Source: Macrocystis pyrifera
Taxonomy: Eukaryota; Sar; Phaeophyceae; Laminariales; Laminariaceae
DNA: 64,000 nucleotides
NCBI GenBank assembly: GCA_031763025.1
Contig: JASSKH010000001.1
Coordinates: 13,907,265-13,971,264 of the forward strand
Reading direction: 5' to 3'
The notes below the pieces were generated by a model. It saw only the letters and a program-made list of their open reading frames with translations, made no database searches and was not told where the DNA came from. Below are positions 9,811 through 55,493 of the stretch, in pieces (position 1 is the stretch's first letter; each line of letters opens with the position of its first letter). The position numbers and the translations under genes were made by a program.

Positions 9811-11905
9811 TTAGTCTGCCCGGTACCTGGCTACCCTATCTGCCATCTCCTTCCTACTTTCGTCCACTGCAGTTTCCCTGCTACTCCTCTTCCCCCCCCT
9901 CTCCGCATTCCCTTGGTCGGGTTTTCTGCTGCTCCTCTTGTTGCCCCTCCTCCCCCCATTCCCTTGGACACCACCCACGGTGGATGCGCGGCGCTGCCTG
10001 CTCAGCTCAGCCTCAGCCTCGTGCCACCTCACCATGAACCGTTCGGCTGCTTCCAGGATCCTCCGGTACCACTTCCACGCCTTTTTTGCAGCAGTGGGCC
10101 ACAGTGCGGTCTCAACTCCAAACACCAAGGGAGCAAGTTCCGTTGACCCTTCGGTGGCGCGGAACTCCCTAAGGTCTTCGGCTACGCATCTATGCCAAGT
10201 CTTAACCTGTCCGCCAGGTCTCGGGTTCTCCCCACCAGCAATCGTCCCGAACATCACCCGGCTGGGTAATCGATCCTTGCTTTGCCGTGCCACCCCCCCC
10301 CGCGAAGAAGAGACGCCGTTTGCGGATGGTCGTTTCGATGCTCTCGCAACGTGTCATCTTGAGGGGCTTCGCGTACGAGAGGGTGGCATGGTCAGTACGA
10401 AGTCGGCGTTGGAAGCCAATGACTCGCAACAGGACTTGGTGGTGAGCCGTTCGAAGCTTGGCAAAGTGTTCCGCTCTGAGGGTCCACGTCACACACCCGT
10501 AGAGCAGGGTCTCAATCACCTCGGCCTTCAGCATTCGGACTTTCAGGCTAAGGGGGGCGGTCGTCCTATCATACAGCTCCGGGCCGAACCGTTTGAGGCA
10601 TGCTCGCATGAGACGGATCCGTCGGTCGATTTCGAGCGAGAGGTCAGCATTTTCGTGGATAACGCCGCCTAGGTACATGAACTGGGCCGTCTGCTTATAC
10701 CTCTGGCCTGCTGCTTCGATAACGAGCGGTGGTGCGAGGGTTTTCTGGTCTGGCGTTTGTAGAAGCATAGTCTCTGTCTTCTTTTCCGACACCGTAAGGC
10801 CTGCTGCTTCGAAGACAGTCACGATGACTCTCATCATTTTCGCGAGCCCTTCAGCCGACTTCGAGACAATCCCTGCGTCATCGGCGTACAACATGCCCCA
10901 TACAGCCCTTCGCACGTACGTCAACGGCTCCTGCTCCTCCGTCCCGGCTACTCCAGCATCACTAAGTTGGACCAAATCCCTTACGATTGCTTCGTCATGG
11001 CTAAAGCGTACTAGTACGACGTGCAACGCAGCAGCGAAAAATACGTTGAACAGTAACGGTGACAGCACACAGCCTTGCCGCAGCCCCTGCGTGACATCAA
11101 ACCATTCCGAGTGCTCGCCGTCATCCGTACGCACGCGAGCCCGCATGCCATCGTGGAAATTACGGATAATTCTCAGCATCTTGGTTGGTACGCCAAAACG
11201 TGTGAGTACTTCCCATAACAGCTCTCGGTCGACAGAGTCGTACGCTTTCTGCAGATCGATGAAGCACAAGTACAGGGGGATTTTCCTCTGAACAGGATAT
11301 TTTCGGACTTCAGGATGAAAGATTACTTCAGGATGAAATGCGAAAAAAAATGAAAAATTGTGAAAAAATACCAAGAAAGCCAACTTTTTTTTTTTCGTTT
11401 CTGGGGTGGGTAGATATCACCACAAGGCACCACCTCACGATTTTTTGGGGTCCTAGGACCCAGCGTCGCCGCTCACTGTCGCAAACGGGTTTTCACCTAT
11501 TTCCGCCGTTCTCGGTGCGGGTAAGAATTCGATTTTTCGTTTTTGCGGTGGTGAGAGGCGATGCGAGATCGTATGACACCAAAAATTCGCGAGGTGGTGC
11601 TTTGTGGTGGCTTCTACCCATCCTAGAAAAAGGAAGACAAAAAAAATGTTTCCTTGGTATCTTTTCATCGATTTCTATATTTTTACGTTTCATCCTGAAG
11701 TAATCTTTCATCCTTAAGTCCGAAAATATCCTGTTTCTGTCTTCCAAGCTCTTGCAACCGGCGCACGGCGAACAACATATCAATCGTTGATCGTGCGGGG
11801 GGGAAGCCGCACTGTTCCTCCGGGAGTAATTCCTCGGTCTCGCAGTAGTTGCTGAGGCGCGACGCGACGATTTTCAATTGGTCGCATAGCGAGACCACCC
11901 TGTTT
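9811..11905 (-). pseudogene. LINE reverse transcriptase, interrupted (MITE plus frameshift)
   Basis: The same protein as at 3-1649, at clearly reduced identity. [14 protein letters not shown] lies before the MITE. After it come [26 protein letters not shown] and YADDAGIVS, so the catalytic core is readable. The host frame is broken by the MITE at 11291-11735 and by a one-base shift at the nine-C run 10293-10301. After the shift the frame continues to the RYRAD end and stop at 9811. The shift in a homopolymer could be a real mutation or a sequencing error. The Arg/Gly-rich tail is present but shorter than in copy 1. Confidence 0.88.
11291..11735. mobile_element. MITE with 48-bp TIRs in the LINE RT frame
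   Basis: Both ends read aacaggatattttcggactt inward and match over about 48 bp with one mismatch. The inverted similarity continues imperfectly deeper (ggtgggtaga...caccacaaggcaccacctc). The flanks are tctg at 11287-11290 and 11736-11739, a 4-bp target duplication; removing the element plus one duplicate restores the LINE sequence seen at 169-192. It has no ORF. The superfamily is not assigned. Confidence 0.9.
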
Positions 11906-19971: not shown

Positions 19972-21933
19972 CGCTAGCGTTGGTACGAGTCGTCCACGCT
20001 TCTGTGCAAAAGGGCTGTGAGGATGAGGTTCTTCCCGTTTAGGATTCCTTATCTGGGGACTTGGATTACGCCGGTCATCGATGGAGACATGGCGATGGGA
20101 GGAGGAGGAGGAGCAGCAGCATCTCCTCAGGATTCTGGTCAGGATGAGGCTGATCAGCGAGGGGTGGCCTCAGAGGAAAGGAGGGAGGATGCACGACAGG
20201 ACCTGCCGAGTCCAGAGGACATCCGGCGGCTGACAATCCTGGCGGATCTGATACGTCAAGGGGTTGGGCAACAGAGCGGGCCCGCCCACCCTTCAGGCAT
20301 GTCTACAACTGTAGAAGTACGAACTAAACTTGAGATTAGAGAGTGGACTGGCATGGTAGGAAAAGGAGAAAGCCTTCACACTAAGTTTAGGGTGTTTGAG
20401 AGTTCATTTCGTGCATATCTGGCAGCTGAGAAATTGTCTGACGTTCTTGGGTACGAGGACATTCCCGTAGGGTTGCCTGACGTGGATTTGGAAATGCTCA
20501 AATTGAACAGAGGTGCAGAAAGAGTGGAGAAGTCTTTGAGAGTATGGAACTTGCTGCTGACAAAAATCACCGACGGTCCGACTCAAAACCGAATCGTCGC
20601 GTCTGGGAGCCCTCAGCAAGGATGGAGGATTTTTGTGTCACAGTACAGAGAAGGATATGACATGGAGGGAGAGCGTTTAGAGAGGGAATGGAACGAGTTG
20701 TGGCAGGGCGATGGTGAAGATGTCTTGGAATACCTTCGTCGTGGGGAGACTATCGTGATGAACATGAACTCCCGCTTGGGCCCTAGTGGCCACGGTAAAA
20801 AGCCTGAAGATGTTGTATGTCGTCATATCGCCCGACGTCTAAACACCTCTTTTACCCGCGCTCGGGAATCCCTTATTTTTTTTTTCCGAATCTCTCGAGG
20901 AAACACCTGGAGTTTACCTTGACACAGGCCCAGCACGAGCGTCGGCAGTCCGGGGGAGAGGGACACCGAAGTGAGGAGACGAGGCACGCGCTCTACACTG
21001 GCGGCATGGGTCGGAGTGGACCATCCTACGGCAGGGGCCAGGATGATGGTGGAGCACGCGCTGCAGGATGGAACGGTGGAGGAGCACGCGCTGCAGGATG
21101 GAACGGTGGAGGAGCAGGCGCTGCCGGATGGAACGGTGGCGGAGCAGGCGAGCGAGGCCCTCACCAACAGTCACCGATGTTCTGCAGACGACACGGCCCG
21201 AACGACTCCCACAACACCGCGGACTGCGTGGCCCTTCGACGGGAGTTCGAGGAATTCTTGGCCTTCCGCGAGCAGAGAGGAGCCCAGGGATTTGCGCATG
21301 AAGGCCGACAGACGGGGCGGGAAATTGACGGAATTCGCCGCCCGGACTTCGTGCAAGATCGACCCAGGGAGCAGCCACAACGTTCAGACGGGAATTGGGG
21401 TCGAGGCCTCCCGCCAAGGCAGGCACCTGGTCGTGGACGCGGGCCTGCAGGGTACACGGGTCGCCAACCGGGGGGGAGAGGTTTCGCGGACGGGCGTCCT
21501 TCCTCCTCCGGCGGCAGGGGGGCGAGCAGAGCACCGAATTTCCGCCCTAATTTTCCACCTCGCTCTGCCACCCACAACGGGCCCCCGCGTTACGCGAACT
21601 ACGCTGGGCACAACGACGGCTACGGGTACAACGCTACTGCGGACGAGCGCTGGGCTGCTTCGGAATGGCAATCCTACGAGGAGCAGCAGTACTCCCCCCC
21701 GAGACGCAAGAGTACGGCCTCGCAGCTCAAGCGAGCGGCTCTCGGGAAGGCTACGGAGACGTGAGCGGAGGATACGGCTCAGGCTATTTCTCCGGCGGCG
21801 GGGGAGTTTACCCGCCGCAGCCCGCCGTTCATGGCGATGGCACATACGGCTCTTACGCAGGATACTCTCCAGCTGGACCAGACGCCTTTCAGCCGATGCG
21901 GTATCTGGAAGCGAACGGCGCGTCACAGCAGCA

Positions 21934-21978
<45 letters not shown>

Positions 21979-24900
21979 ACAGCAATACGGAGTTCAGCAG
22001 CCCGCCAGCGCCGCCTCATTCTCTCTCACTTCGTCGTCTCCCTCTTCCGGATCGCCGTCGTCTCAAGGGCCTCTTCGTAGCTGTGTGGCATTGAATGTGT
22101 CTCGAGGCAAGTTTGATTTGGTGTCCGATTTGGTGTCTGATTCGGCGTCTGACTTGATTGATTTCGGTGTGGAATCTCCTGCTTCTGAGTGCAAGTCTGG
22201 TGTGACTAAGGAGAGTGAGACTGTGCTTGTGAGTGCGCATGTGACGGAATCTGCTGTGAGTGCTGCTTTGCTGTGCGAACCCCAATCCTCGCTCACTCCC
22301 TCCCCTCCCGGAAGTGAGAAATGGACGTCTGATTCTGGATCCATGTCGTACGTAACGAACGACAAGACTCTCATGTACGATTTGCGTGACGTTGAGCCAA
22401 ACCGCGAGTTCATCCAGATTGGAAACAAAGGCATGATTCCCGTGGTAGGGGTAGGAAGCATCAACTTGCGATTCCACATGTATGATGAAGACGGATTCGT
22501 GAAGGATTTTGACGTGCAATTGAAGGAAGTTTTGTATGCACCACAGATCGGCTTCAACCTTTTTTCCGCGTGGAAAGCTTCTCACCGCCAGGTCGTTACC
22601 CTCGATCCCACGGGTACCCACCTCATGGAAGGGCAACTCAACTTTGCACGTGGTAAATCGAGCGATTTCTTGTATGCCACACGTTTGCCCAACGACCCAA
22701 GCAGGCAGGTGATCAGTGTTCCCCGATTGTTTCCGACTCCGTCTTGCCCGCCTGCATCAGATGACGTACGTGATGTTGCGAATTCGTTTTTCGACTTGTC
22801 TTTGTGTGCAGAAACGCATCCCGACATGCACCTCGGTCGGGAAGTCGAGGGAGTTCTGAGTGACGTGAGGCCTGACGGTGGTTGTGATGAGAGTTCCAGT
22901 TGGTGTTTCTCGCCTGAAGTGATCCCAGAGAGTGAAGCAGAAATGGACGCGCGACAGTTTGACAGAATAGAGCATGAGCAGGCGAATGCTGTTTTGGGTC
23001 CCGGTTCGAATCCGTTCTTTGTGGGAAACCGCACGTCACACATCGACGTTAACGACTTCCACCGTGCGAATGGCCACCTTTCCGAATTTCTGTTGCGAGA
23101 GACCGCCCGCCAACAGGGTATCACTCTCACAGGTGTGATGCAGCCGTGTGGGGATTGCATGGCAGCGAAGGGGAGGAACACACCCGTGAGAAAAAGGGCG
23201 GGCTCGCGGGCGGAGGAGCCGAACGACCTCGTGCACCTCGACTTCTGCGGGCCGTACAGCGCTTCCCTCGGCGGCAATTGCTACATGCTGTACGCCGTGG
23301 ATAGCGCGACGCGTTTTTCCAAGTCGTACGCTTTGCGGCGGCGATCGGAGGGTCTCGTGGTGTTCAAGCGTCTCATCGTGGATCTCGCTCGCATCGCCAA
23401 GCGCCCCGTCCGCTGCATTCGCGTGGACAACGACGCCGTCTGGACCAGCGTCGCTTTCCGCGATTTCTGCGCGAGCGCGGGCATCGCCGTCGAGTTTTCT
23501 CCGCCCGGCGTCCAGCAGTACAACGGAGTGGCCGAAAGCGCGATCTGGCGGGCGAACAAGGCGGGGATGGCTGCGCGGCGCTGTGCCGCCCGTCTTCTCG
23601 GGCCTGGGGGTTTCTCGAACATCCCCGGCCTCGACGAGCGCGGCGACAAGCTGTGGGCCGAGTCTGCAAAATGGGCGACGGAGGCGTTCAACCAGTCGGG
23701 GACGACCGCAAACGAGGGCCGCCGGTCGCCGCAGGAGCTGTTCACCGGGAAGAAGGGGCCTTTCCGTGTCCTGCCGTTTTTCCAGCGAGGATACATGCGC
23801 GTCGAGCGGCGGAACAAGATGGAGGACCAGGCCGTCGTCTGCCACTACCTGAACGGAGGCGACAACCACGCGGACTGCTGCGTCAAGGTCGTGAAGGCGC
23901 GCACGGGGCATGTTTGCTACACGAGCAACGTATCGTGGGCGTCGCTGCCGTCGTCGGGGGGGGGGGGAATTCACGTGGAGTCGGTGTCCCTCTCTCCCCT
24001 TCCGCGCCTGCGCCGCCCCCGCACCCAGGTTTCCAGATCCAGTTCGTGCCGCCGCAAGGGCCTGCCGCTCCGCCGCCGTTCAGGGCCGCCGCGCCGTCGC
24101 CGTTGTCCGTGGAGCCGCCCAGGTTCGGAGCCATGCCGCTGCCCAGAGGAGCTTCGCCGTCTTCTGCGCCGGCCGCGTCATCGCCGGCGCCGTCGCCGCA
24201 GCAAGCATCGGGAGCGCCGTCGTCCGGCTCGCACCCGCTTCCGGCATGGTCTCCGTCCCCGATCCATGGAGCTTCTTCGCTTGGTGGTTCATCATCATCT
24301 GAGCCGACGCCGGCGGCGTCGTCGCGGCAACAGCGCCCGCCGCCGGCAGCTGCCGCGAGATTTCCGCCTCTCACTCCGCATGCTATGAGACAGGTCGGGG
24401 GTGAAGGGGATCGTCGGATTCAAGGGCGCACTCGGCTGCAAGCACGGGCGATCGCGGAGCAGAGGATGCTTTCCCCGATGGTGGATGGGGCCGTAAACTC
24501 GCCGCTGCCGGAGTCTTCGCCGGGAGATGGGCACCGTTTGGGTCTTGCTTCTCAGGTCGGGCCGAACGTGATGGCGGCGTGGGAGAGGACTGCCTGTGCG
24601 ACGAGGGAGCATATCGATGCGGTCATTCGTGACGAGGTTCCGCCTCTTCAGCGTCCCGAAATGCCCACTTGACACGCGAGTGACCTTCACGTGCCGAAAA
24701 GTTACAGGGATGCCGTGCAGGGTGATCATTCGGTGCAGTTTTCAGATGCCATGCAGAGAGAAATTCACGGGTTGGCTGAAGGACAGGTTTTCGAGCCTGT
24801 GCCGGAGCAACAGCAGATAGACAATTGTATCGGGTCGAAATGGGTGTTTGACTGGAAGGTTGATGCGTTCGGTTGGCCTGTGAAAGCGAAGGCGAGACTT

Positions 24901-26841
24901 GTTGCCAGAGGTGATATGCAGAGAGAATTCTTGGATTTTGGGGAACTGTATGCACCTACTGTAGATGTGTCGTGTGTTCGTTTGCTGGCAGCCTTGGCGT
25001 GTGAGCTTGACTTGGGGTTGTTTCACCTGGATGTTGATCAGGCTTTCGTCCGAGCGGAACTCGAGGAAGAGGTGTTCATGCGTTTACCGCAGGGATGTGG
25101 TGCGTTGTCGGGGAAGATCGTGAATTTGGGCAAGAGTCTTTACGGGTTGAGGCAGGCATCCAGGCAGTGGTTTGCGAAGTTGAAGAAATGTCTTTTGCGT
25201 CTGAGTTTCGAACAGTGCCTGGCAGATCCATGTGTGTTTCGTCTGATTGAGGAAGGAAAAGTCGTTTTGCTCTTGGTGGTTCACGTCGACGACATTTTTG
25301 CAGTGGGAGAACAGGCAAGGTGTGATCAGTTCAAGGAAGACCTGAACAAATTGGTTCCAGTGAAGAACTTGGGGGATTTGACGTGGTATTCCGGGTGCTA
25401 TTACGAGAGAGACAGGGAGGCAGGAAGATTGACGATTTCCCAGAAGACATACGTCGACAACCTGGCAGGAGAATACGGTGTTACGTGGGGGAAAAGTACG
25501 CCGTTGAGCACGACGTACAGACTTTGGGAGTTTGATGTAGATGAGCCGGAGGTGAACGAACCTTTTCGACAATTGGTCGGATCGCTTCTGTGGGTCGCTC
25601 GGTTGACCAGACCCGATCTTTTGAACGCAGTACGGGCAGTAGCGAGGTATTGCAGTTCGCCGAAACTGATTCACTGGAATGCGGCGCTCAATATCCTGGG
25701 GTATGCAGTGAGGACGAGCCATTTTGGTATTTCATTTCAGAGAGGTACTGTCGAGGGGCTGAACTTGGTTGCATTTGCAGACGCTGACTACGCAAGCAAG
25801 GCAGCAGACAGGAGGTCGGTGTCAGGAGGAGTGATTCTGTGTGCGGGGGGGCCGGTCAGCTGTATCTCGAAGACGCAGAATTGTGTGACAACATCTACGA
25901 CGCAGGCAGAGTATGTGAGCATGGCTATGGTTGCGCACGATATTTTGTTTCTGAGGCAGGTATGGCGGTTCATGTTGCCGAAGGCTGGTATGCCGTGCAT
26001 TCCTTTGTTTGAGGATAACGAGGGGGCGATTCAGATCGCGAAGCATCCGATTTCGAATTCGAACTCGAAGCACATTGACGTGCGGCACCACTTTCTGAGG
26101 GAGCTAGTGGAGAGGAAGGAATTGGAAATTATTCACGTAGCTTCGAGGTACCAGCACGCAGACTTTCTCACGAAGCCGTTGCCTGAGAGAGAGTTTGAGT
26201 TCCACCGGAATTTTGTGATGAATTTGAGGTGATTTTTCGGATGACAGTTTTTGTTTTCAGATGGAGGATTAAGTGTTCGTGATTTTATGGAGTTTGTCGG
26301 GTTCACCGTTTTCACTTGGTGACACCGCATGTTTTTTCTGGTTCTGTTGGAGCGCAGTTTGTGGAGGATAACATGAAATTACCGTTTTACAAGGGTGGTT
26401 TCCACTGCGCAATCTATATTTTTTAGTTTTGATACCTTGACGTGAAATTGGCGTTTTACCATGCGATTTCACGAAATTGGATATTTGAAGAAATGAAGAA
26501 TTGCCGTTTTACCCTGGCGATTTTGAAAAGGGACTACATTTTAGGATTGATGAAACCTCGCAGAATTGCCGTTTTACATTGACGATTTGGGTAGGTTTCG
26601 AAAACAATGTTTGAATCGTTGGAGTTATTTTCTCTGTTCGAAATATTTTTGAATTCCAGGATGCGAGGATGGTTTGATTTTCTTGGAATTTATTTTTGGT
26701 ATTGATTGAGGAATGATTTGAATGATAGTGAGAACGTTGTTTTCTGTATTGAATGAGTACAAGTATGATTTCCGGTATGACAATTTGACGAAGAGTTGAA
26801 GATTCGGGTCGAAATCATGACAATGTCGCGAGCAGGGGGGC

Positions 26842-42290: not shown

Positions 42291-42945
42291 TAAAAATTCA
42301 TAACTATACAGTCGATTACTTTTTACTTCGCCTTCATTTTGCGATCCTCGTCGTATGTTTCGGTGCTCTCGTGAATAACCCCGCTGTTGAATATACATGT
42401 CAATCTGTCGTTTGTGTAAACAACCGAGATGTTTTTCACTGGCCAACAGAGCGTCGTCAGCTCTCTGACCGCTTGTTGGGGATCTCTTATTATATTTCGT
42501 GATTGGGGGCCGCAGAGTTCACCGGGCGGATCGCCATCGTGTGAGCGCTTACTACCCGCCAATTGATATTTAGTTGGGTTGGGCGTTGGAATTACGGCCT
42601 GTGTGCCGGGTTGTGCTGCGCATGCAGTGTGTGGTGTTTGTTGTGCTGCGTGTGCTCGATATAGTCGGGGAAAGATTGTAGTCGATAATTTCCAATTACT
42701 ACGAGAGGCTATCGGTTGAGTCACGCGTGCTGGATCGGGGTGCTCCTCCACGCCGCCGACATTGCTGCTGCTGTTTGAGGGTGATAGCTGCGAGTTCATA
42801 CTACACCGAGAAGCGGGTTGTACTTGGGTTGGGGGTTTGGATCGTATGGCGGTGCTCTACGTGTGTTGTTGCTGCAGAGCTGCGGCTGCTCCTGCTGCAT
42901 GCTGCGGCAGAGCTGTGCGGTGTGTTGTACGATGTGCTACACTAT
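42291..42945. other. No recognisable gene
   Basis: The minus strand carries a 158-residue frame (42323-42799) with no known domain or low-complexity bias; it is left unassigned. The downstream part is GCTG-rich. Confidence 0.35.
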
Positions 42946-43221
42946 CGTTAAGATATTGTCTTGTATGAGATTGAAAGCCCGGTAACTACCTGGGTTCAGT
43001 CACTGAGAACGTATTTGTAGTACCTGGAAGGCGTATCTTAGACGGAAAACCAGGGTTTTCCAGAGGAGCACGAGCTTGGTCTCAGTCTCCGCGTGCACGA
43101 AAGGCATAAAACTGCTCTTCTTCTATAGCTAAGCAAACAACACATGTGAGTACAATGTTTACCGACTCAAAAGGCAGACCTGTCCAGGGATACAAAGTGT
43201 CCCGCAAGCTTGATCTCAACA
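42946..43221 (+). repeat. 5' LTR of the gypsy-type element
   Basis: 276 bp. Starts gttaagatattgtcttgtat (after one base) and ends gatctcaaca; the ends form a short inverted pair ttaagat/atctcaa. About 16 differences from the 3' LTR, mostly transitions. Confidence 0.9.
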
Positions 43222-45869
43222 AGTGGCGTCTTCGGCTTAGGGCTTTCCGCTTTTTTGTCCGTTTGCGTTGTTTGTCACTGTTTTTTTATTGTTTGCTTTC
43301 CTATTGTTGTTGAGTAAGTTTGTTCCGGCCACTGCACCATGGAGACTCACGAGGTGGAAGGGTCTGCTTCCCCTCACGGTGGCCGAGCCACTGAGGCCCA
43401 GGGCCCCATTTCTGTCTTGCCTTTCCCCTCGTCGATCGACCCTTGCGAGGCCGCACAGCAACTCATGCGTTCGGTCAAGGCCTCCGCCTCTGATATTCTC
43501 ATGATGTGCAACGATGGCAGCCATGAAGGCCTTAGTTCTACTAACTGGATCCCCGGTTGGGAGTACCCTCTCAAGAAATCCTTCGCGCGCGCCATCACGC
43601 CTGACAAGCCTACGACCGTCCCTCTCACTACCTTGATGGATGATTTTTTTGGACAGGTCAGCAGGATCGTCGGGACCGGAGGCGTTCACGCTCCTCCTGA
43701 GGTTGCTGAGCAACCACTTTGACCGCACCAACACGGGGGCCAGCTACACCAAGTTGCATAATTTTGGCGTGGCTAACGGGACCCCTTTTTGCGATTTTAG
43801 TCGTGCATTGCGAGGGGTGGTGTCCGCAGCGACGGGGACTGAGCGTGTTTTGGCACCGGGGGTGGAGGTCGTTTTGGAGGTAGTTCGGATGACAGTGAAC
43901 GAGCAGTACCCTAGCTTGATGCCGACGCTGTACCCGGGAGTTTTGGCTACGGTATCGAGGCCGTTCGGCACTTTGGACGCCATGTGGTTAGCTTTCGAGA
44001 CTCTTGCGAATAATAAGACACCTGCCGTCAACGGCGAAAATATTTTTATTTGCCTGCTTCTTCGACGGGTGAGCGGTCATCCGCCCCGTCGGGGCCCCGG
44101 CCCACCAATATTGGTCGCGGCCAGGGCCGGACGTTTCCCCAGTCGCCTTCTTGGCAGGCGGGATCGCTCAATAATCCGCTTGTGATGAATGTCCACAAAT
44201 CCATCCCTGACTGCCTCGACCCGTGGCTTGACACCTCTTCCAACTGCTGGCCCGTTGAGGAACACCACTATGCCGAATTCACGCCGTTTGCATGTCTATC
44301 CAGACCGAGGACCCTCCCCTCTGGAGCGGCCTACTTTCATCGTCCGCTCGCGCAGCCGCCCTCAGCGAAAACCGAGGACGCTGTTTAAACTGTCACGAAG
44401 ACACACACTCTCTTCGACAGTGTAGACACCCCTTTTTAAACCTTAGTGGTATCTTGAACCCCGACCTCGGAACGCTCGGCGACGACGGCGAGGCGTTCCG
44501 TCGTTGGCAAGAAGGCATGATCAGACACCGCCGCGAGAACAATTCACGACCGAAGAAATACAACCAGAAGAAACACAGGCGTCGTCCCGGCCCCTCGCGT
44601 GGGCAACATCACGGCCAGGGTCAGCAACACAGACAAGGTGATGGCTACAACACACACGCGACACGAGGACACCAGCAGTCTCACTCCGGCCATCATGGTG
44701 GTTCGACCGCCCCTACCTCTTCCGCCCCGGCTCCCGTCTCGGGGGTTCGCTACGGTGCCTCGCATACCTCGGGCGGAAACCCGAATGGACGCCAGCCAGG
44801 CACCTTCCGCGCCGGTAACTGACAGGTCGACGGCGGTTCGGCTTCTCCTGATCGCCCGCCGCCAGCATTGTCGGGAGAAAAACCTTGATTTCACAAGATG
44901 CACACGTCCCAGGCTCGCTCAGTACTCCGCTCCCGCCCCGCGCGTTACTCCGTACTTCGGACCGACGCAGCGACTCAGCTCCACTGCTTTTTCCGGGGAG
45001 CCCTCGGGCGCCTTCCCCGACGTCGGGAGCCCGCGCCTCAAACGCCGCTCCCCTCAACCTGGGCACGAGAGCAGGCACGATAAACGCCTCTCTCCCAAAC
45101 CACGCACCGCGCAACACGACGGGTGTCGCGCCGTCGCGTTGTTTTTTTCAGCGAGGGTATCCCCCTCCTACACCTCCCAGCCATGCGGTGGCGGTCGGTT
45201 TGAGGTGCGGGAAGGCAAATACCGAAACCCCGAGATCTCGGTTGAAGCTCGACTCGGCGTTTCCTCGCAATAACGGTGGCCGCTCCACCCTTTTTCCTAT
45301 TAAGGAGGAGTCGACAAGATTAGCTACCTCGTCCCCCTTCCCCACCAGGTCTACAGGACGGAAGCCCTCTCCGGTGGACCCTTTGTTGCCCCCCACCCGA
45401 GCACCGTTCTTGAAGACGTCTACAGGGTCTGCAGGCCCTCTTTCGTCTTCGCGCACGCCACTCCACGTGCGCAGCGCTCCTTCGGCTCCAGTGGAACAGG
45501 AAAAACCTGGCACTGTCCGTCGAGCCAGTGGTGCCTCCACGGCCTCCGGTCAGATCAACCGGACAGCATACCCGTTAAATTCGGAAGAATCGCAGCTCTC
45601 GTCAAGCAGAACGGGCTCAGAGCCCCCTGCCCCCTTTGGTCCAGGACAGAGATCATCGGGCGCAGCAAGAGAACCTTCTGGCGATTTTTTTGCCTACGGG
45701 CAATGGTGACACAGAGCCAATGTACGTGGAACCGGACTCGTCTCGTGCACCAGGGGCTCAGTGTTCTCAGAGAAGCACACTCCCCCACCCACACGCCGCA
45801 ACTGCGGCCACCGACGACTCGGCACCGTCGGGTTTTGACCGTACTCTCGAGTATACAACGGAGCGGGTG

Positions 45870-46330
45870 GTACTGTTCTGGCAGCCCCCCTCTTATTTTT
45901 CGCAGTGGTCCCCCTCGTCTTTTGTCGTCGACGATGTATCATATTCCTGCGCGGAGCAGTATATGATGGCTGAAAAGGCTCGCCTTTTCCAGGACTACGG
46001 CACAGCGGAGCGGATTAAGGCCTCGCCCGACCCACGCGAGCACAAACGCCTCGGTCGAGGCGTGCATAACTTCGACTGCGCTATCTGGGACCGTGTTCGG
46101 GAAGACGCCGTCCTTGCTGGTAATTTTGCCAAATTCTCGCAGAACCCGGTCATGAAGCAGCACCTATTGAGCACTGGCACCAAAATTTTGGCTGAAGCCA
46201 GCCCTTTTGATGCCGTGTGGGGCATCGGTCTGCGGGCAGACGACCCCCAAGCTCACGACCCCTCACGGTGGCATGGAAAAAAATTGCTCGGTAAAGTTCT
46301 TTCCGCCGTTCGCGACACCCTCCGATCAAG
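45870..46330 (+). other. NADAR (YbiA-like) domain inside the gypsy-type element
   Basis: About 150 residues with the full family signature: an aromatic start (FWQPPSYFSQW), CAEQYMMAEKARLF, LGRGV, AIWDRVREDAV, KFSQNP...LLSTGTKILAEASP, DAVWGIGL, then W.GKKLLGKVL..VR. NADAR proteins are linked to NAD/ADP-ribose metabolism; bacterial YbiA acts as an N-glycosidase on riboflavin intermediates, and some NADAR enzymes remove ADP-ribose from guanine. The conserved Glu (EQY), the Trp of AIW and the WGIGL motif are all present. It sits between the CCHC knuckle and the aspartic protease, so it would belong to the gag-pro part. Its role in the element is unknown. Confidence 0.9.
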
Positions 46331-47633
46331 TGAGGCCGGGTTGGCACACCCCGCCTCCTCTCCCCAATTCTGCACCCCAACCAGACCTGACAGAATTCAT
46401 GAGATTACACCAGCGCCGCCCCGCCCTTTGGCCGTGGCCCGCGCTTGCCCAGGTCTTCTCCTTTGGAGTTTTCGACCTATTTTTCTGACGCGCCGGCTGA
46501 TCACAGCCCCGAGATTTTGGCTGTCGCACCTAGTGTCGACCCCTCCCTCGCGCTGCCAGAACACGGCCCCTGCCTCGTCGGGGGCACCATTACCCTCGAT
46601 GACGCCTCTTTTACAACGAAAATCGCGATTCACAGCGGAGCTGGCGTTCTTGCACCTTTTGGTTGCGTGGCGCTTCTCGACACTGGCTCCCCGCAGACTT
46701 TCATCCGACGAGATGTTTTGGATCGCATGCACTCGGTTGGTGCGGCATCCCTCGCGTGCGAGCAGAAAGGCGTCCCTCGTTCTTGGGGGGGTTTTGGCGA
46801 TCGGCCCCTCTGAAGACTTCGACGAGTGTGCGCCTGAGCGTCCAATTTTTTCGAGAAAATGAGCCTACTTGCTCCCTCGCAGTTTGGGCCTGCGTGGTCC
46901 CCCCCTCGGTGATGCAGCATGCTGTACTATTGGGACGTGACAGCTGGATGCGCTTTAATAGCCGCTCCTACCGCTCTCTGCCACCTCGGCCGTCTGATCC
47001 AACGCGTTTTTGGCGATCTGGAGTTAGTTCACCACGCCCCGACAGGCATGTCCGTGTACGCCATCGACTCCGCCGCTTCGGGTGGAGGCTTCCATCTACG
47101 CTACGAGGGCGCAGCAGGCGTCACCCTGTCCGACGATCCCCAGCTGCTTGCTGTGAATTTGGTTCGAAGCGATGGCTCCCCGGCCCTCACTGGACACTAC
47201 TTGGTCGACATGATGCCCCAGCCCAACCTACCCTCGGTCGAGGAGCACTTCGTCTCCTCCGACGACAGGTTCTTCCCCTCGTTGGAGTGGCGGCTGTCGA
47301 GCCGGGGGATGTCCTCGGCGTCGCCCACGCCCCACTGCTGAGCGTTCCGCTGGACGTTTTGCAGCAGGACAACCGAGCCCCCAGTCCTCCCTCCGGACTA
47401 GGTGAGGTGTGTCCGGTTTCAGCAGTTACTGCCCCCCCCCTCGCAGCTCCAGCCTCGCCCTCGCCTGCACTGCTTGAGCGTTTGACCTCAGAACAGCGCG
47501 CTTCGTTCCTGCGCGTCTGGGCACGCTTGCCGACACATCTGCGGGAGGTGGCTTTTGATCTCCACGGCACCGGCTGGACCCCTGTGGTCATTGAACAGCT
47601 GGGGGACGTTCTCTGCGAATTTCCTGACGTTTT

Positions 47634-50094
47634 CACACCTCGGATAACACTTATCTACGTTATGGGGCCTAACACAGGAACGTGGTAACGTACTAACATA
47701 GTGTTAGCACTAGAGGGGCGATCACGGTAACGCAGTAACACAGTGTTAACTGGAAACCCACGAACGTGCACGAGCCTTACTGTTATGTTGCTGCTCGGTC
47801 TCGTCCAGCTCTGGTACAGTAACATTATGTTATGCCGTGATCAGTCCTTGAACTAACACCGTAACACAGTGTTAGCTTTGACGAAACACGTACTTTATCA
47901 CTCTCCCAGATCGATATCCGCATGTTTACTAACACGATAACATAATGTTACTGTCGACGCAGCGTTAGACGTAACACAATAACATTATGTTACCCTTAGG
48001 AGGAGTGTTATACATAACACCCTATCATAACGTTACCATGTTCGCCAGCACTACTAACACATAACATTGTGTTACAGATAACACACTAACGTAACATAAC
48101 GCAATGACCAGCGCTACTAACACTACGTTATCTGGACCCCCCATCTGATTGCCTTAGGGTCGGATAACGTAACCACACCTCGGATAACGTAACACTCGGA
48201 TAACACTTATCTACGTTATGGAGCCTAACACAGGAACGTGGTAACGTACTAACATAGTGTTAGCACTAGAGGGGCGATCACGGTAACGCAGTAACACAGT
48301 GTTAACTGGAAACCCACGAACGTGCACGAGCCGTAACGTAATGTTGCTGCTCGGTCTCGTCCAGCTCTGGTACAGTAACATTATGTTATGCCGTGATCAG
48401 TCCTTGAACTAACACCTTAACACAGTGTTAGGCTTTGACCAAACACGTACGTTATCACTCTAACATTCCCAGATCGATATCCGCATGTTTACTAACACGA
48501 CAACATAATGTTATTGTCGGCGCAGCGTTAGACGTAACACAATAACATTATGTTACCCTTAGGAGGAGTGTTATACATAACACCCTAACATAACGTTACC
48601 ATGTTCGCCAGCACTACTAACACATAACATTGTGTTACAGATAACACACTAACGTAACATAACGCAATGGCCAGCACTACTAACACTACGTTATCTGGAC
48701 CCCCCATCTGATTGCCTTAGGGTCGGATAACGTAACACTTAACGTACGTTAGATACGTTACAGTCTTAGCCGGCGCATGCGTAACATTATGTTAGGATGT
48801 TAGCCTAAATGCGGAAGTCCCTGCAACATTATGTTACGGTGTTACCGTCAGTAAAGATCTGATGGTAACATTCCGTTACCGTGTTACCATCAAAACCAAT
48901 CCGGGTCTAACTTTTTGTTACTGAGTTACCGTTGGGGCCGAAGTCGTTCTAACGTAATGTTACGACGTTACCCTTTGGATCTTCCCGAGATCTAACATGT
49001 GTTACCTGTGTTAGTGGTAAAGCGGGCGTGTGGGAGTAACATAGCGTAGCCGTGTTATCCAATTTCGCCGACATCCCAGTAGGGAATACCTACAAAAATA
49101 TCCCCGGGGGGGGAGGATAGCATGGCATCCCCGGTAAAAAAAAAACGCCTCCATATTTTAAAAAAAACCCCAAACAGGGGATATTTAGGATGGATCCCCG
49201 CAAAAAAAAAACGCCTCAGTTTTTTGTGGAAACCCCGCCAGTACGTTATCCATCTATAACACATTACGTTATCCATCCATAACGTAATCTGCACACTCGC
49301 ACGTACGAGTTAACACGGCAGTAACATATTGTTGAGTTTAGATTGGGGGTGTACGTTATCTACTAACTTGTGTCACTACATACATTGCATACGAGTTAAC
49401 GACATTAACATAATGCTATTAATAGTGTTTTATCGATCATATACGTTATTATCCGTTTGACGTTTGTTATGTTGTTATGGTAGCAAGACTTCCGTAATAC
49501 CCTCACATAACGTCGCTCGAAACGGACTGCTGCTGCGGCTGATACAGTAACATAATGTTAACGTTGTATTGACCATGCACGTCATCTCTGTAACGTGTGT
49601 TACGATGGCCCCTAGGAATTTCACTAACACACTAACATAGTGTTATATACGCGTTTATTTGGCCGTGTACGTGATCCGTCGAAAGGGTGTTACGGTAGCA
49701 CGAAGAATCCCGCGGACACACTAATATAACGTTACTCGCTACGGGCTGATGCCGCTGACACGGTAACATAATGTTAACGTTTAAGTGACCATGTACGTTA
49801 TCCCTTTAACGAGTGTTACGGTAGCCACCAGGAATTCCGCTAACACGCTAACATAGTGTTACTCGCTATGGGATGCATACCCTAACACCGTAACACATAT
49901 ACTGCGGTCAGTACGAGATCAAGGTAACACTCTAACATAATGTTACGCGATCGCCCGCCAATATCACAACACACTAACACTATGTTATCACAAAATCCAG
50001 AAAGTAGTTAACGTAGTAACGTAATGTTACGTGTTTTTTTCGCTGACGCCTAACATTAACATAAAACGTTAAGTGTTACGTTATCCGAGGTGTG
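47634..50094. mobile_element. hAT-like non-autonomous element packed with TAACA...TGTTA palindromes
   Basis: Ends are cacacctcggataac and gttatccgaggtgtg, perfect inverted repeats. The 8-bp duplication gacgtttt lies at 47626-47633 and 50095-50102. An 8-bp duplication with CA...TG ends is typical of hAT. It encodes no transposase. It is filled with short palindromes such as gtaacattatgttac and taacacagtgtta, roughly one per 50-60 bp, on both arms. A segment of about 550 bp (47640-48185) is tandemly repeated at 48195-48740. Near 49075-49245 there is a different block with runs of A and ccccggtaaaa. It is inserted in the gypsy-type element, so it arrived later. A partial second copy is at 27697-28522. 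Confidence 0.9.
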
Positions 50095-53000
50095 GACGTT
50101 TTCTCGAAGTCCAAGTCGGATTTTTTTCCTGCTCGTTGATGACTTTCGTGATCTCGGTCCCGGAAGGAAGCGCTCCTGACACGTCCAGGCCGCACCGCAT
50201 CAACCCCATCCTGGCCAAGGAAGTGGAGGCCACCTTGGATCAATACCTGGCGGCAGGTCTGATCCAGCACTCGACTTCTCCGTACTCGAGCCCGCTGGTG
50301 GTCATCCCGAAGAAGTCTGGAGGCGTTTGGATCACCGCGAACTACAAAAAAACTCAACCAGATCAGCAAACTCAGCCAGCTGCCTATCCCTCGCGTGGAC
50401 CAAGTCCTCGACTCCCTGGGGAAGGGACGGGTGTTTTCCCTCTTCGATTTGGTCTCCTCGTTCCACCAGATTACCGCGCACAAGGACACCGTCCCTCTTA
50501 CGGCGTTCTGCACTCCCACGGGCCTTTACGAGTGGCTCGTCATGCCCCAAGGCAGCAGTGCTTCGCCCGGCTGGTTCGTCAAGTGATTAACGAAGTCATT
50601 AAAGGCCTGGCACAAGTAGCGGCCTACCTTGATGATGTGATCATTTTCGACTCTGACCCGACGGCCCACGTCAAGACGATACGAGCCCTCTTCGAACGCC
50701 TGCGCAAACACAACCTCAAGCTCTCCCCCTCGAAGACTCGCCTCGGCGCCACGGACGCCAATTTTCTGGGCCACTCTATTTCGCCCGCGGGTATAAGCCC
50801 TAATGCGGAAAAAGTTTCGGCCTTGCTGAAAATGCCGATGCCCAAGAACCTCAAGCAGGTCCGCGCCCTGATGGGCGGCGTAGGATATTATCGCAAATTC
50901 CTGCCCGACCTGTCTAAACGGATACGTCCTCTCACCGCCCTTCTCCGGAAGGGGGTCAAGTATGTCTTCACGCCGGCTATGGAAGTTATCGTCCGCCAGA
51001 TCCTCGCCGAGCTCGCGGCCCCACCGATTTTGATCTTCCCTGACTGGGATGCCGTAGCCGACGGCTCCCGCCCCTTCCACGTGTACTGCGACGCCTGCAT
51101 CGACGGTTTCGGTGCCGCGCTCGAACAAGAACAACCGGGCGGCTCGGTACGGCCCAGTGCTTATATCAGCCGCGCTACCCTCGATTCCGAAAGGCACTGG
51201 ACACCGTTGGACGTGGAAGCTGGCAGCATTGTCTGGGCTATCAAACGACTCCGAGGTTACCTGTGGGGCACGAAGTTTCGAATATTTTCGGATCACAAAG
51301 CACTTGAGAGTATCGCCAAAGTAGGGGACCACAACGCGCGAGTCCAGCGGTGGCTCGAGTTCCTCACCGCGTTCGACTACACCCTCGAGTACCGCAAGGG
51401 CAGTGCCAACGGAAATGCTGGCTTTCTCTCCCGCTTGCCAGAGCCCGCCACAGAACACGACCGCAGTGAGTCTAGCTGCCTCAATCCCGTCGAGGACGGT
51501 GGTATCTTCCTCATCCGAGCCTGCGGGCTTCGCACTCGCTCTTCGCCGACCCCTGGTGTCGGTTTGGGTGGGCTGGTGTCCCGCAGTGAAAGTGCCGTCT
51601 TGGGTGGGCTACCTCTCGCCTCTTCGGATTTTCGCGATTTTCGCACACACGGGCCACGTATGAGGATTGACGACCTCTTTGCTCCTTCGGGGAGATTCGT
51701 CGCTCGTGTATCTTCCTCCGTCGCCACCGTCGACCGCCGTCCTGGCTTGGGGGATTTTTCACCCCCCGCCAACGCCGCTTTCGCTTCGGTTTTTGTCGTG
51801 CCCTCCGGGGGCAACCAGGGCTCTGCAAAAGCCCCCGCTGCAGCGATGATTGTCGCCCAGCGCGCTCCTCTCCCGACGAGCACTTTACAGGTCGAAGATT
51901 CCGTCGTGAGCACTGCTCCGGCCGCGTCTTCCTTTTCATGCCAGGGCTCTGCAGAAGCCCCCGCTGCAGCGACGATTGTCGCCCAGCATGCTCCTCCCCC
52001 GACGAGCACTTTACAGGGAAAATATTCCGCCGTGATCACTGACCCGGCCGCGTCTACCCCATCGCCGCTTGGCAACCCGGCGCCTCCGAACGTTTTGCCG
52101 TCTTCAGGCCGCATCTCATCGCGGACGCGCCGACGAACAGCCGCCGCCGCTGGCGCCGTGCCGCCTGCTGTTGATTATGGCTTCGGGCCCGGCGGGACCC
52201 CTAGACCATCAGCCCGGCGTGCTACCACCCCGCTGCGAGCCCCACGGCCGCGACCGCCCGCACTCGTCGTTTTGGCCCCGACTCCTGCCGCCTCGTCCGT
52301 CCCGACGGTACCCATCCCGTCCGGCCGCGACCGCACCGAGCCCGTGGGAACTCCTCTTTTACGACTTCCACCGCCACTCTGACGCACTTCCCGTCACCTC
52401 GACCGACTTGGACGCCATCGGCGCAGCTGCCGAGTTTCAGTTCGGTGATTCCGCAGCGCGCTATCCGCACGCCGACCGGGCTCGGGAACAACAGGCTGAG
52501 CCCGCGTGCAATGCCGCCATGCGCTACATAGCCCTTGGCCGACCGGAAGTTTTGCCAGACGACATTTCATCAGGTTTCCCTTCCCACCAGCGCCCTCCCT
52601 TTTCGGAAGTTCAAGAGCTGGCCACCAAAGGCCGCTTGCACACCACTGACGCGGGCATCGTTCTACTTGTCCGACAGCCGTCTCCCCCCCCTGCGTTGGA
52701 TACGCCACGCCCGGTGGGTCGTACGGCCTGCTTATTGAACGACGAGCCTATTCACATTTATTTACCGCTGCTCATGCGCCCCTGGGTCATGCAGGCTTGC
52801 CATTCTACGACTTCCTGCCACCTAGGAACCGCGCGCACCCTACGTATGCTCGAACGTTTCTACTGGTGGATCGGCATGAGCATCTGCACCCGGTGGTGGC
52901 TACGCAACTGCTTAAAGTGCCAGGCACGGAAAACGTCGCGGCATTCGGTCCGGTGGTCCTCCATCACGTTGCCCTTGCCAGAAGGGCCCGGCATCGCCGT

Positions 53001-55219
53001 CAGCATCGACTATTTCGGCCCCCTCCCGGTGACGCCTCGAGGTAATACCTACATCTTGCTTTTCACCGATCGTTTCAGCCGCCGAGCTGACATGTACGCC
53101 GTCACAGCGGCCGAGTTCACCGCTGAGGGCACGGCTAAAATTCTCATCAACCTGTGTATCCCTCTTTGGGGGTGCCCGCGCAGCATCCTCTCGGACAACG
53201 GCCTCCAGTTCTGCTCCAAGCTTTCGCAAGCCGTATATCAGCTTCTCGGGGTTCGAAAAATTGCCACCAGCTCCTACCACCCAAACGGCAACGGTGGGGT
53301 GGAACGTGTAAACCACACGATGGTCCGGATGTTGGCAATGGTCGTCAACGAGCTCCAAAACAACTGGGATGAACAGCTCCCTCACGTCGAATTTGCGTAC
53401 AACAATTCCGTCAGTGCCGCCACGGGTCTGGCTCCCAACGAGGTACATATGGGTCGGCTCCCACGCCTCCCACTCACGATTTTTCGAACGTGCTGGAGTC
53501 ACCGGCCACCAGAGCTTGGCCCGCGACCACCTCGCCTACTGCGACTTGGCGACGGACCGCCAGCAGCGCGCGTACGAAATCGTTTGAGAACACCACGCCC
53601 TCACTGTCGCTCGCGTGAACCGCCGCAACTCCCCCCTCTCCGACGCTCTGCGTCTGGTCCCCAAATTTGACGTTGGTGATTGGGTGTGGGTGTACAATAC
53701 GGCGGCCACCATCCGCCAGGGCGCGAACCCAGACACGGGCGCCAAGGTCCTCAAGGCCAAACTCTCACTCAACTGGACGGGTCCCTACAAAGTTCTCGCA
53801 GTTGGCCCCTGCTCCTCAGCGGACACCCCGGATGGATCTCTCGGAGCGAAGCTCCTGTATTTGGATCTTCCTTCCGATATGCCCGGCGCCGAGGCTCGCC
53901 GGCGCGTATCTGTTCAACGCTGCAAGCCCTGTGCCAACCCCCACGACCGTGGCGACATGCCGAAGTATTTGCCGGCGGGGTTGACCCAATACGTGCTCAA
54001 CAATTTCTCCAAGAAATCCCCTCCGTACCACGTCACCGAGGACGACGTTTCGACCCCTCTTGAACGACTCGAAGTGGAAAAGATTACTGGACATCAATCG
54101 GTTAGAGGTCGAGGTGGCGTCATCGCGGTGATGTACGAGACGCACTGGAAGGGACTTTCCCGGCCATCCTGGGAACGGGAAGTGAACCTTCAGCTTTCTC
54201 GCCACGCAATTTTGCGCTACTGGGCCGGCACCCCGAACCAACACCGCCAAACCAACCGCCTGTACCGCCGAATGAGAATTGGCGTGGCACAACGGGAGCT
54301 TTCTCGGAGTAACGGCGAGGGGTTTCTGGCACCCGGCTATGGTTGCGTATCGCACGCCGATTGGCTCCGCCGCTACAGCAACACTGTACTTCCCAACGGG
54401 GCCCACTTTTGGTACAAGGGCGACGACGATCTTTGGTGGCTCGGGAAAATCAGCGCAACTACACCGACGGATGAAGTATATTGGTTCGATTTTTGGACGA
54501 CCCGGGACCAATCAAGCTTCCTCTTTCTCCGGCGCGCTACACGACTTCGACGAGAGCTGTACGAGGTCCTTGGTGTCTGCAAATTCACTTGGCTAGCGCG
54601 TTTACACGGGGGGTCCAGCGTAACGTAGATGAATCTCGAGGTGCCGCCGTGGATAGCTGATTTTCGCTTCTTGACTGCACTCGTTATTTATTTATTTGTT
54701 GTCGTCTTCCTGGACTTTGGGGGATGGATGTTTGTCTGCCCGATATGTTCCTGGTGTGTTTTTTTTTTTTTGGACTGGGTTGGGTATGTGTTTTTGCGCA
54801 TTCTGTCCTGCCTACCCCCCCCGCCCAGCGTTGGGACTGGTCTGGGCACTCGGCCGCTCAATTGCGGCCTAGGACGCGCTTTCAGAGTTATGGACTGGGT
54901 TTAGATGGTTCTTGTCGTCTTCCGTGTTATTTTTCTTTTCGTTCCCGTACGCACTTTTCGCTTTTCTGTGCATCTTCCTCGCCCCCCCCCGTGCGGTCGG
55001 TATGGCGATGGCTTTCATCGACGATTTCTTCCTGCCACTTAAGGCTAGGTCTTCCCTTTACTTTTTTTACGTACTTTGCCGGCTTCGTTGCCTCGCCGTT
55101 CAGAGGTGTGGGAGTGGGTTTTGAGGAGCCGCATCTTCGACTCATGTTCTAGTTCGTGGAATCGGGGTTTCCGCGAATTTCTCATAGTTCTGCATATACG
55201 GCTCATCAGAGTGGGCTAG

Positions 55220-55493
55220 TGTTAAGATATTGTCTTGTATGAGATTGAAAGTCCGGTAACTACCTGAGTTCAGTCACTGGGAACGCATTTGTAGTACTTG
55301 GAAGGCGTATCTTAGATGGAAAACCAGGGGTTTTACAGAGCACGAGCTTGGTCTCAGTCTCCGCGTGCACGAAAGGAATAAAACTGCTCTTCTTCTATAG
55401 CTAAGTAAACAACACGTCTGAGTACAATGTTTACCGACTTAAAAGGCAGACCTGTCCAGGGATACAAAGTGTCCCGCAAGCTTGATCTTAACA
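55220..55493 (+). repeat. 3' LTR of the gypsy-type element
   Basis: 274 bp, tgttaagatattgtcttgta to gatcttaaca; followed by ctat. Ends TG...CA as expected. Confidence 0.9.

Follow-up and report, generated by a model that had tools for sequence, protein, structure and literature searches.

A YbiA-type NADAR domain in the Pol region of Ty3/gypsy retroelements of giant kelp, and a derivative family that lacks reverse transcriptase

Retroelements of the Gypsy kind that carry a NADAR domain have been described in the brown alga Ectocarpus, for example Gypsy-12_Ec32, and for these a role in RNA processing and a possible horizontal acquisition of the domain were proposed (Dinatale et al. 2025, PMC12477816). 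Among the matches listed by literature searches linking NADAR or DUF1768 with transposons, that study was the sole relevant report. The kind is already known. Here we describe an element of this type in 64,000 nucleotides of the giant kelp Macrocystis pyrifera (assembly GCA_031763025.1, contig JASSKH010000001.1, positions 13,907,265 to 13,971,264), referred to below as the window. Unlike the Ectocarpus account, to which our elements are likened by description, the present one concerns a kelp and four divergent families, one of them a derivative without reverse transcriptase (RT), and it adds tests of active site, fold and selection.

An earlier note, made from the letters of the window, had claimed a complete-looking NADAR signature inside a gypsy-type element, between the CCHC knuckle and the aspartic protease, and on both counts it was right. 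Within the open frame 45636-46859, residues 81-230 (window positions 45876-46325, + strand) match the Pfam NADAR profile (PF08719) over positions 2-163 of 163, with an E value of 4.1e-49 and a score of 167.4 bits (cut-off 35.1). The domain lies between the CCHC zinc knuckle of Gag (44382-44423, +; pattern CX2CX4HX4C) and the protease active-site motif LLDTGS (46673-46690, +; by pattern search). In fold it is of the YbiA type, and among NCBIfam models it is matched best by TIGR02464 (riboflavin-intermediate N-glycosidase; 153.5 bits, cut-off 73.7). Equivalents of E43, K50, E125, K75, R79, W89, R93, D130 and W133 of the Phytophthora nicotianae structure 8bau are all present, with Y84 replaced by F and D86 by C. 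A match to the PADLOC candidate defence family PDC-M42C (147.6 bits) and a score of 21.8 bits with the NCBIfam NADAR anti-phage model, far under its cut-off of 240, are read as kinship rather than function.

The genome searched comprised 537,376,219 bases in 223 contigs. The Pfam NADAR profile gave 1264 first-look candidates, of which the best 150 were scored, and all 150 passed the cut-off; one match, at G000:C207:3553515-3554039, lies within a stop-free stretch of 2349 codons. By NADAR sequence four families can be distinguished: A, which includes the window element, B, C and a smaller D (two partial domains, L064 and L065), with mean identities between families of 48-56%. Family B may be the commonest among the top rows, because about 88 of the 150 (a hand count) start at profile position 1, as do the rows from which all 14 fetched B copies came. 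The regularity of the association was judged from the opposite direction, by taking rows from a search with the window RT and RNase H (3970 candidates, 127 of them scored) and fetching the expected place of NADAR; for family A, the sample was the 20 among the best 40 RT rows that had no row in the Pfam NADAR search. The domain was present in 18 of these 20, in one of two rows at 80-81% RT identity, and in five of five and ten of eleven rows at 72-76%, or 34 of 38 RT-picked loci in total. It was not seen within the approximately 1 kb inspected at each of L046, L050, L063 and L069, where a shift or an insertion could conceal it. This disposes of chance capture by a single copy: the suggestion that NADAR belongs regularly to this lineage of elements is borne out, and the outcome named as its refutation, the domain in this copy only, did not occur.

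Copies with longer open frames show how the domain is carried. In L027, of family A, a single open frame of 1696 codons holds NADAR and the DTG motif together with RT and RNase H, and in L032, of family C, an open frame extends from upstream of NADAR past the protease motif into RT. The distance from NADAR to the DTG motif is 346 nt in families A and C and 388 nt in B. In Ectocarpus sp. CCAP 1310/34, five predicted proteins fuse NADAR with RT, four with RNase H as well and one with integrase (by Pfam), and the kelp RT is 57-71% identical to them in pairwise comparison; in P0013 and P0227 (source ENA) NADAR is followed by the same DTG motif. To judge from these frames and fusions, NADAR, which lies directly before the protease, is a fixed Pol domain in one lineage of Ty3/gypsy long terminal repeat (LTR) elements of brown algae. 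In L012, L015 and L016 (about 2304-2560, oriented), an upstream frame that ends at 2560 has about 256 nt in common with the NADAR-Pol frame but is read in a different register, which may mark a change of frame from Gag to Pol shortly upstream of NADAR.

The expected Glu and Trp, whose conservation had also been remarked upon in the earlier note, are kept across families that are about 50% identical. In the last strand, the E125 place is taken by Glu, not Asp or His, in 45 of 45 open copies of families A to C and in both D copies; the equivalents of W89, K75, R79, R93 and D130 are likewise present in all 45, and those of E43 and K50 nearly so. We consider the domain to be probably active.

Family B (L020-L023 and L028, with flanks L029-L031) offers a contrast of its own. 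All five B loci with 10 kb have NADAR, the DTG motif and integrase matches, and none has a match to RT-RNase H at E 1e-4; just two matches, both at chance level (E 0.6-0.8), came from L021 and the flank pieces. L027 and L021 are collinear up to L027 4427 = L021 4511 and resume at L027 5610 = L021 4519; the same step is found in L022, and it amounts to a single loss of RT and nearly all of RNase H. The elements are about 13.1 kb long. Their LTRs, with TG...CA ends, are identical over 503 nt in L021 and 99.6% identical over 501 in L023, with 4-bp target duplications GAAG and GCAG (L021, L023), features that rule out a Ginger-like DNA transposon. Because of this LTR identity and these duplications, the sequences mark family B as young and recently mobile, and, given the loss, RT is presumably supplied by another element. 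NADAR is open in all 14 fetched B copies, which were picked by NADAR score. Across five copies the ratio of nonsynonymous to synonymous change (omega) is 0.49 for NADAR, 0.48 for the protease part and 0.51 for the integrase, and NADAR is therefore not singled out.

Between families, compared with one copy each, the proportion of synonymous differences (pS) in NADAR is 0.69-0.84, which is saturated, and nonsynonymous divergence (dN) is 0.37-0.50; NADAR has therefore been held under purifying selection in the long run, about as strongly as the protease (dN 0.26-0.41) and more weakly than RT, whose N-terminal part has, from A to C, a dN of 0.15 and a synonymous divergence (dS) of 1.37. Within families, NADAR omega is 0.31 (bootstrap 0.18-0.56) among 13 RT-picked copies of family C, and 0.47 (0.27-0.83), beside 1.34 (0.84-2.39) for the upstream stretch, among 21 family-A copies picked by NADAR score. 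As pairwise counts share copies, these intervals are rough.

The best explanation, which we hold tentatively and with slightly less than even confidence, is that NADAR is a Pol-fused N-glycosidase of the particle that removes ADP-ribose from guanines of the template RNA or complementary DNA (cDNA). Being part of Pol, the domain would be packaged in the particle and cut free by the element's protease, there to act on template RNA or single-stranded cDNA, in which ADP-ribosyl-guanine lesions would block reverse transcription. It would thus serve as a nucleic-acid hygiene enzyme, and the ADP-ribose could come from a host defence enzyme or another source. The chemistry has precedent, in that NADARs, that of an oomycete included, take ADP-ribose off guanine in DNA (PMC11543638; PMC11125620). 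A bolder and rather doubtful version would have the domain as a particle-borne ADP-ribose eraser that undoes ADP-ribosylation of RNA or cDNA by an undescribed brown-algal host defence, in a lineage judged, from its presence in both kelps and Ectocarpus, to predate their split; family B would then indicate an importance of the domain beyond reverse transcription, whether it acts in cis or is provided in trans to particles that elements share.

The main rival to the particle N-glycosidase, unlikely on balance but a serious candidate, is that the small-molecule activity of YbiA has been kept, directed at riboflavin intermediates, free ADP-ribose or its cyclic derivatives, for instance an alarm signal made from NAD, and not at ADP-ribose on nucleic acid. 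The TIGR02464 match, which names a riboflavin-pathway substrate, speaks for it, and a survey argues that phage NADARs chiefly meet soluble ADP-ribose derivatives (PMC9503650). The same survey assigns the polyprotein-embedded NADARs of eukaryotic RNA viruses to macromolecular host ADP-ribosylation, however; the fusion to Pol places the kelp domain with the nucleic acid of the element; and the NADARs tested in the reports considered here hydrolyse ADP-ribosyl-guanine. It is also conceivable, though improbable, that NADAR is a module of Pol for folding, packaging or the binding of nucleic acid, with catalysis unneeded. Its place at the front of Pol, its retention in family B without RT, and the change of the E43 equivalent in two of 14 open B copies would all suit such a module, which would nevertheless have to account for pocket residues kept in every open copy, or nearly so, across such divergent families.

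Much of the within-family evidence, together with some of the residues, weighs against the particle N-glycosidase. Beyond the riboflavin-pathway match and the loss of E43 in some B copies, D86, a ribose contact in 8bau, is not kept. The omega of 0.47 in family A stems from copies picked by NADAR score; in 18 RT-picked copies, mostly decayed and read with L027 as the frame, NADAR gives 0.89 (0.52-1.67), indistinguishable from neutral, beside 0.46 (0.21-0.98) for the upstream stretch (48 codons) and 0.44 (0.26-0.83) for the linker and protease start. In just two of the 18 RT-picked A copies that have NADAR is it open over at least 93% of its length. Among 11 A copies, omega falls from NADAR (0.61) to RT-RNase H (0.45) and integrase (0.33). 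Variants common to at least two copies show no clear deficit of amino-acid changes (amino-acid to synonymous, 10:8 in A, 6:5 in B and 6:6 in C) and no clear split from singletons (53:35, 20:9 and 15:11). As for the suggestion in the earlier note that the domain may counter a host defence based on ADP-ribosylation, which is a conjecture at this stage, a six-frame search of the genome gave no match to DarT, the control being detected in one of 14. The ART search gave none either, but its control was silent and the outcome carries no information. One exon of a PARP was found, and searches of this type miss genes split by introns. The neutral-looking omega in RT-picked A copies, and the faster evolution of NADAR than of the N-terminal part of RT (52-54% against 76-81% identity from A to C), would also be expected of a captured hitchhiking gene with no function for the element, a reading to which we give very little credence: the domain recurs in nearly all RT-picked loci, in four families and in Ectocarpus proteins, and a dN of 0.37-0.50 beside saturated synonymous sites disfavours it. 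The selection check proposed in the earlier note is accordingly upheld between families and mixed within them, with C at 0.31 and A at 0.47 or 0.89 depending on sampling.

Stand-alone NADARs of brown algae (P0014, P0019, P0020, P0024 and P0133) are about 54-61% identical to the retroelement domain; they have Tyr at the Y84 place, and four of the five have a cysteine-rich N-terminal stretch. A host NADAR of near identity, which would have indicated a chance capture, was not seen in a genome search with P0014 of Ectocarpus (best 150 of 1400 candidates scored), in which the top places were those already in the Pfam NADAR search and no kelp stand-alone gene was picked out. One stress-induced Ectocarpus protein tested in Arabidopsis, Esi0017_0056, is a 391-aa NADAR protein, which may come from a stand-alone gene or a retroelement piece (PMC7922944). 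In a tree of 101 of 198 prepared rows, neither a single retroelement clade (approximately unbiased test, p-AU 0.458) nor one that also takes in the stand-alone NADARs of brown algae (p-AU 0.307) is rejected. Families A and D group with some unnamed sequences and the stand-alone proteins at a support of 89, under the starred level; the domain may be of bacterial or of algal origin. F66/R75 was dropped as a mark of the retroelement clade, since P0128, a metagenome NADAR entered as bacterial, shares it. The abalone (Haliotis) sequences P0001 and P0005 have three and two NADAR matches, respectively, about 31-47% identical to the kelp domains.

The window copy is itself decayed, because its protease motif lies in another frame than NADAR, its RT profile is matched only at positions 131-205 of 205, and about 2.2 kb of repeats are inserted between protease and RT. 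All parts of the element lie on the + strand. The 5' LTR (42942-43221, to repeat-search resolution) pairs with the 3' LTR (55216-55493) at 92% over 118 nt and 96% over 156 nt; GTGGGCTA stands before the latter, as it does in L019 and L026 of family A and L021 and L023 of family B. The insert (47639-49900, end approximate) has direct repeats of 270, 237 and 117 nt and, by eye, numerous TAACATTATGTTA-like units; the RT offset is likewise enlarged in L014, a nearby copy on the same contig with a 98% identical NADAR. An open frame at 50073-52379 encodes the end of RT (RVT_1, 40 bits) and then RNase H (RT_RNaseH, 99 bits), followed by an integrase (52069-53667) with an H2C2 zinc finger (PF17921, 49.2 bits) and a catalytic core (PF00665, 35.7 bits), and by a post-integrase region (53615-54625) with a chromodomain-like stretch (PF00385, 19.9 bits, under the cut-off of 25.1); a chromodomain in this place characterises the chromovirus branch of Ty3/gypsy. 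The order of protease, RT, RNase H and integrase is that of Ty3/gypsy. Of 15 further family-A loci examined over 10 kb, six have the Gag knuckle as in the window and 11 the order of protease motif, RT and integrase; the protease motif shares a frame with NADAR in ten, lies in another frame in three and was not found in two. An Rfam search of the window gave no match. Elsewhere in it, open frames judged by eye resemble non-LTR reverse transcriptases (3-1649, +, and 10202-11383, -) and a Copia-type element (20017-26232, +).

Reversible ADP-ribosylation of nucleic acid bases has been characterised chiefly in bacteria and phages. If the particle N-glycosidase is real, an ADP-ribose-removing enzyme long kept by eukaryotic retroelements would suggest that the nucleic acid of such elements becomes ADP-ribosylated in brown algae. 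The proposal lends itself to testing: natural variants are numerous, the structure of a closely similar fold has been solved, and the family without RT offers a contrast. The Tx1 long interspersed elements (LINEs) of the Pacific oyster are also retrotransposons with a NADAR, and are likened to ours by description; they are non-LTR elements, with the domain in open reading frame 1 and called divergent (PMC12477816). The YbiA-type NADAR of P. nicotianae (8bau), 31-33% identical, has its fold and ADP-ribose pocket in common with the window domain, and the available text on it does not describe the protein as part of a retroelement Pol. With the DarT1-NADAR toxin-antitoxin pairs, the likely common ground is the hydrolysis of ADP-ribosyl-guanine; the DarT1-associated (BC4488) antitoxins differ in that Asp takes the E125 place and a DarT is linked to them, whereas the kelp domain has Glu and its genome gave no DarT match. 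In position, the hygiene enzyme proposed here would resemble the dUTPase that adjoins the protease in some retroviruses: fold and reaction are unrelated, so that the likeness is by analogy only, and there too an enzyme of nucleotide hygiene is found beside the protease.
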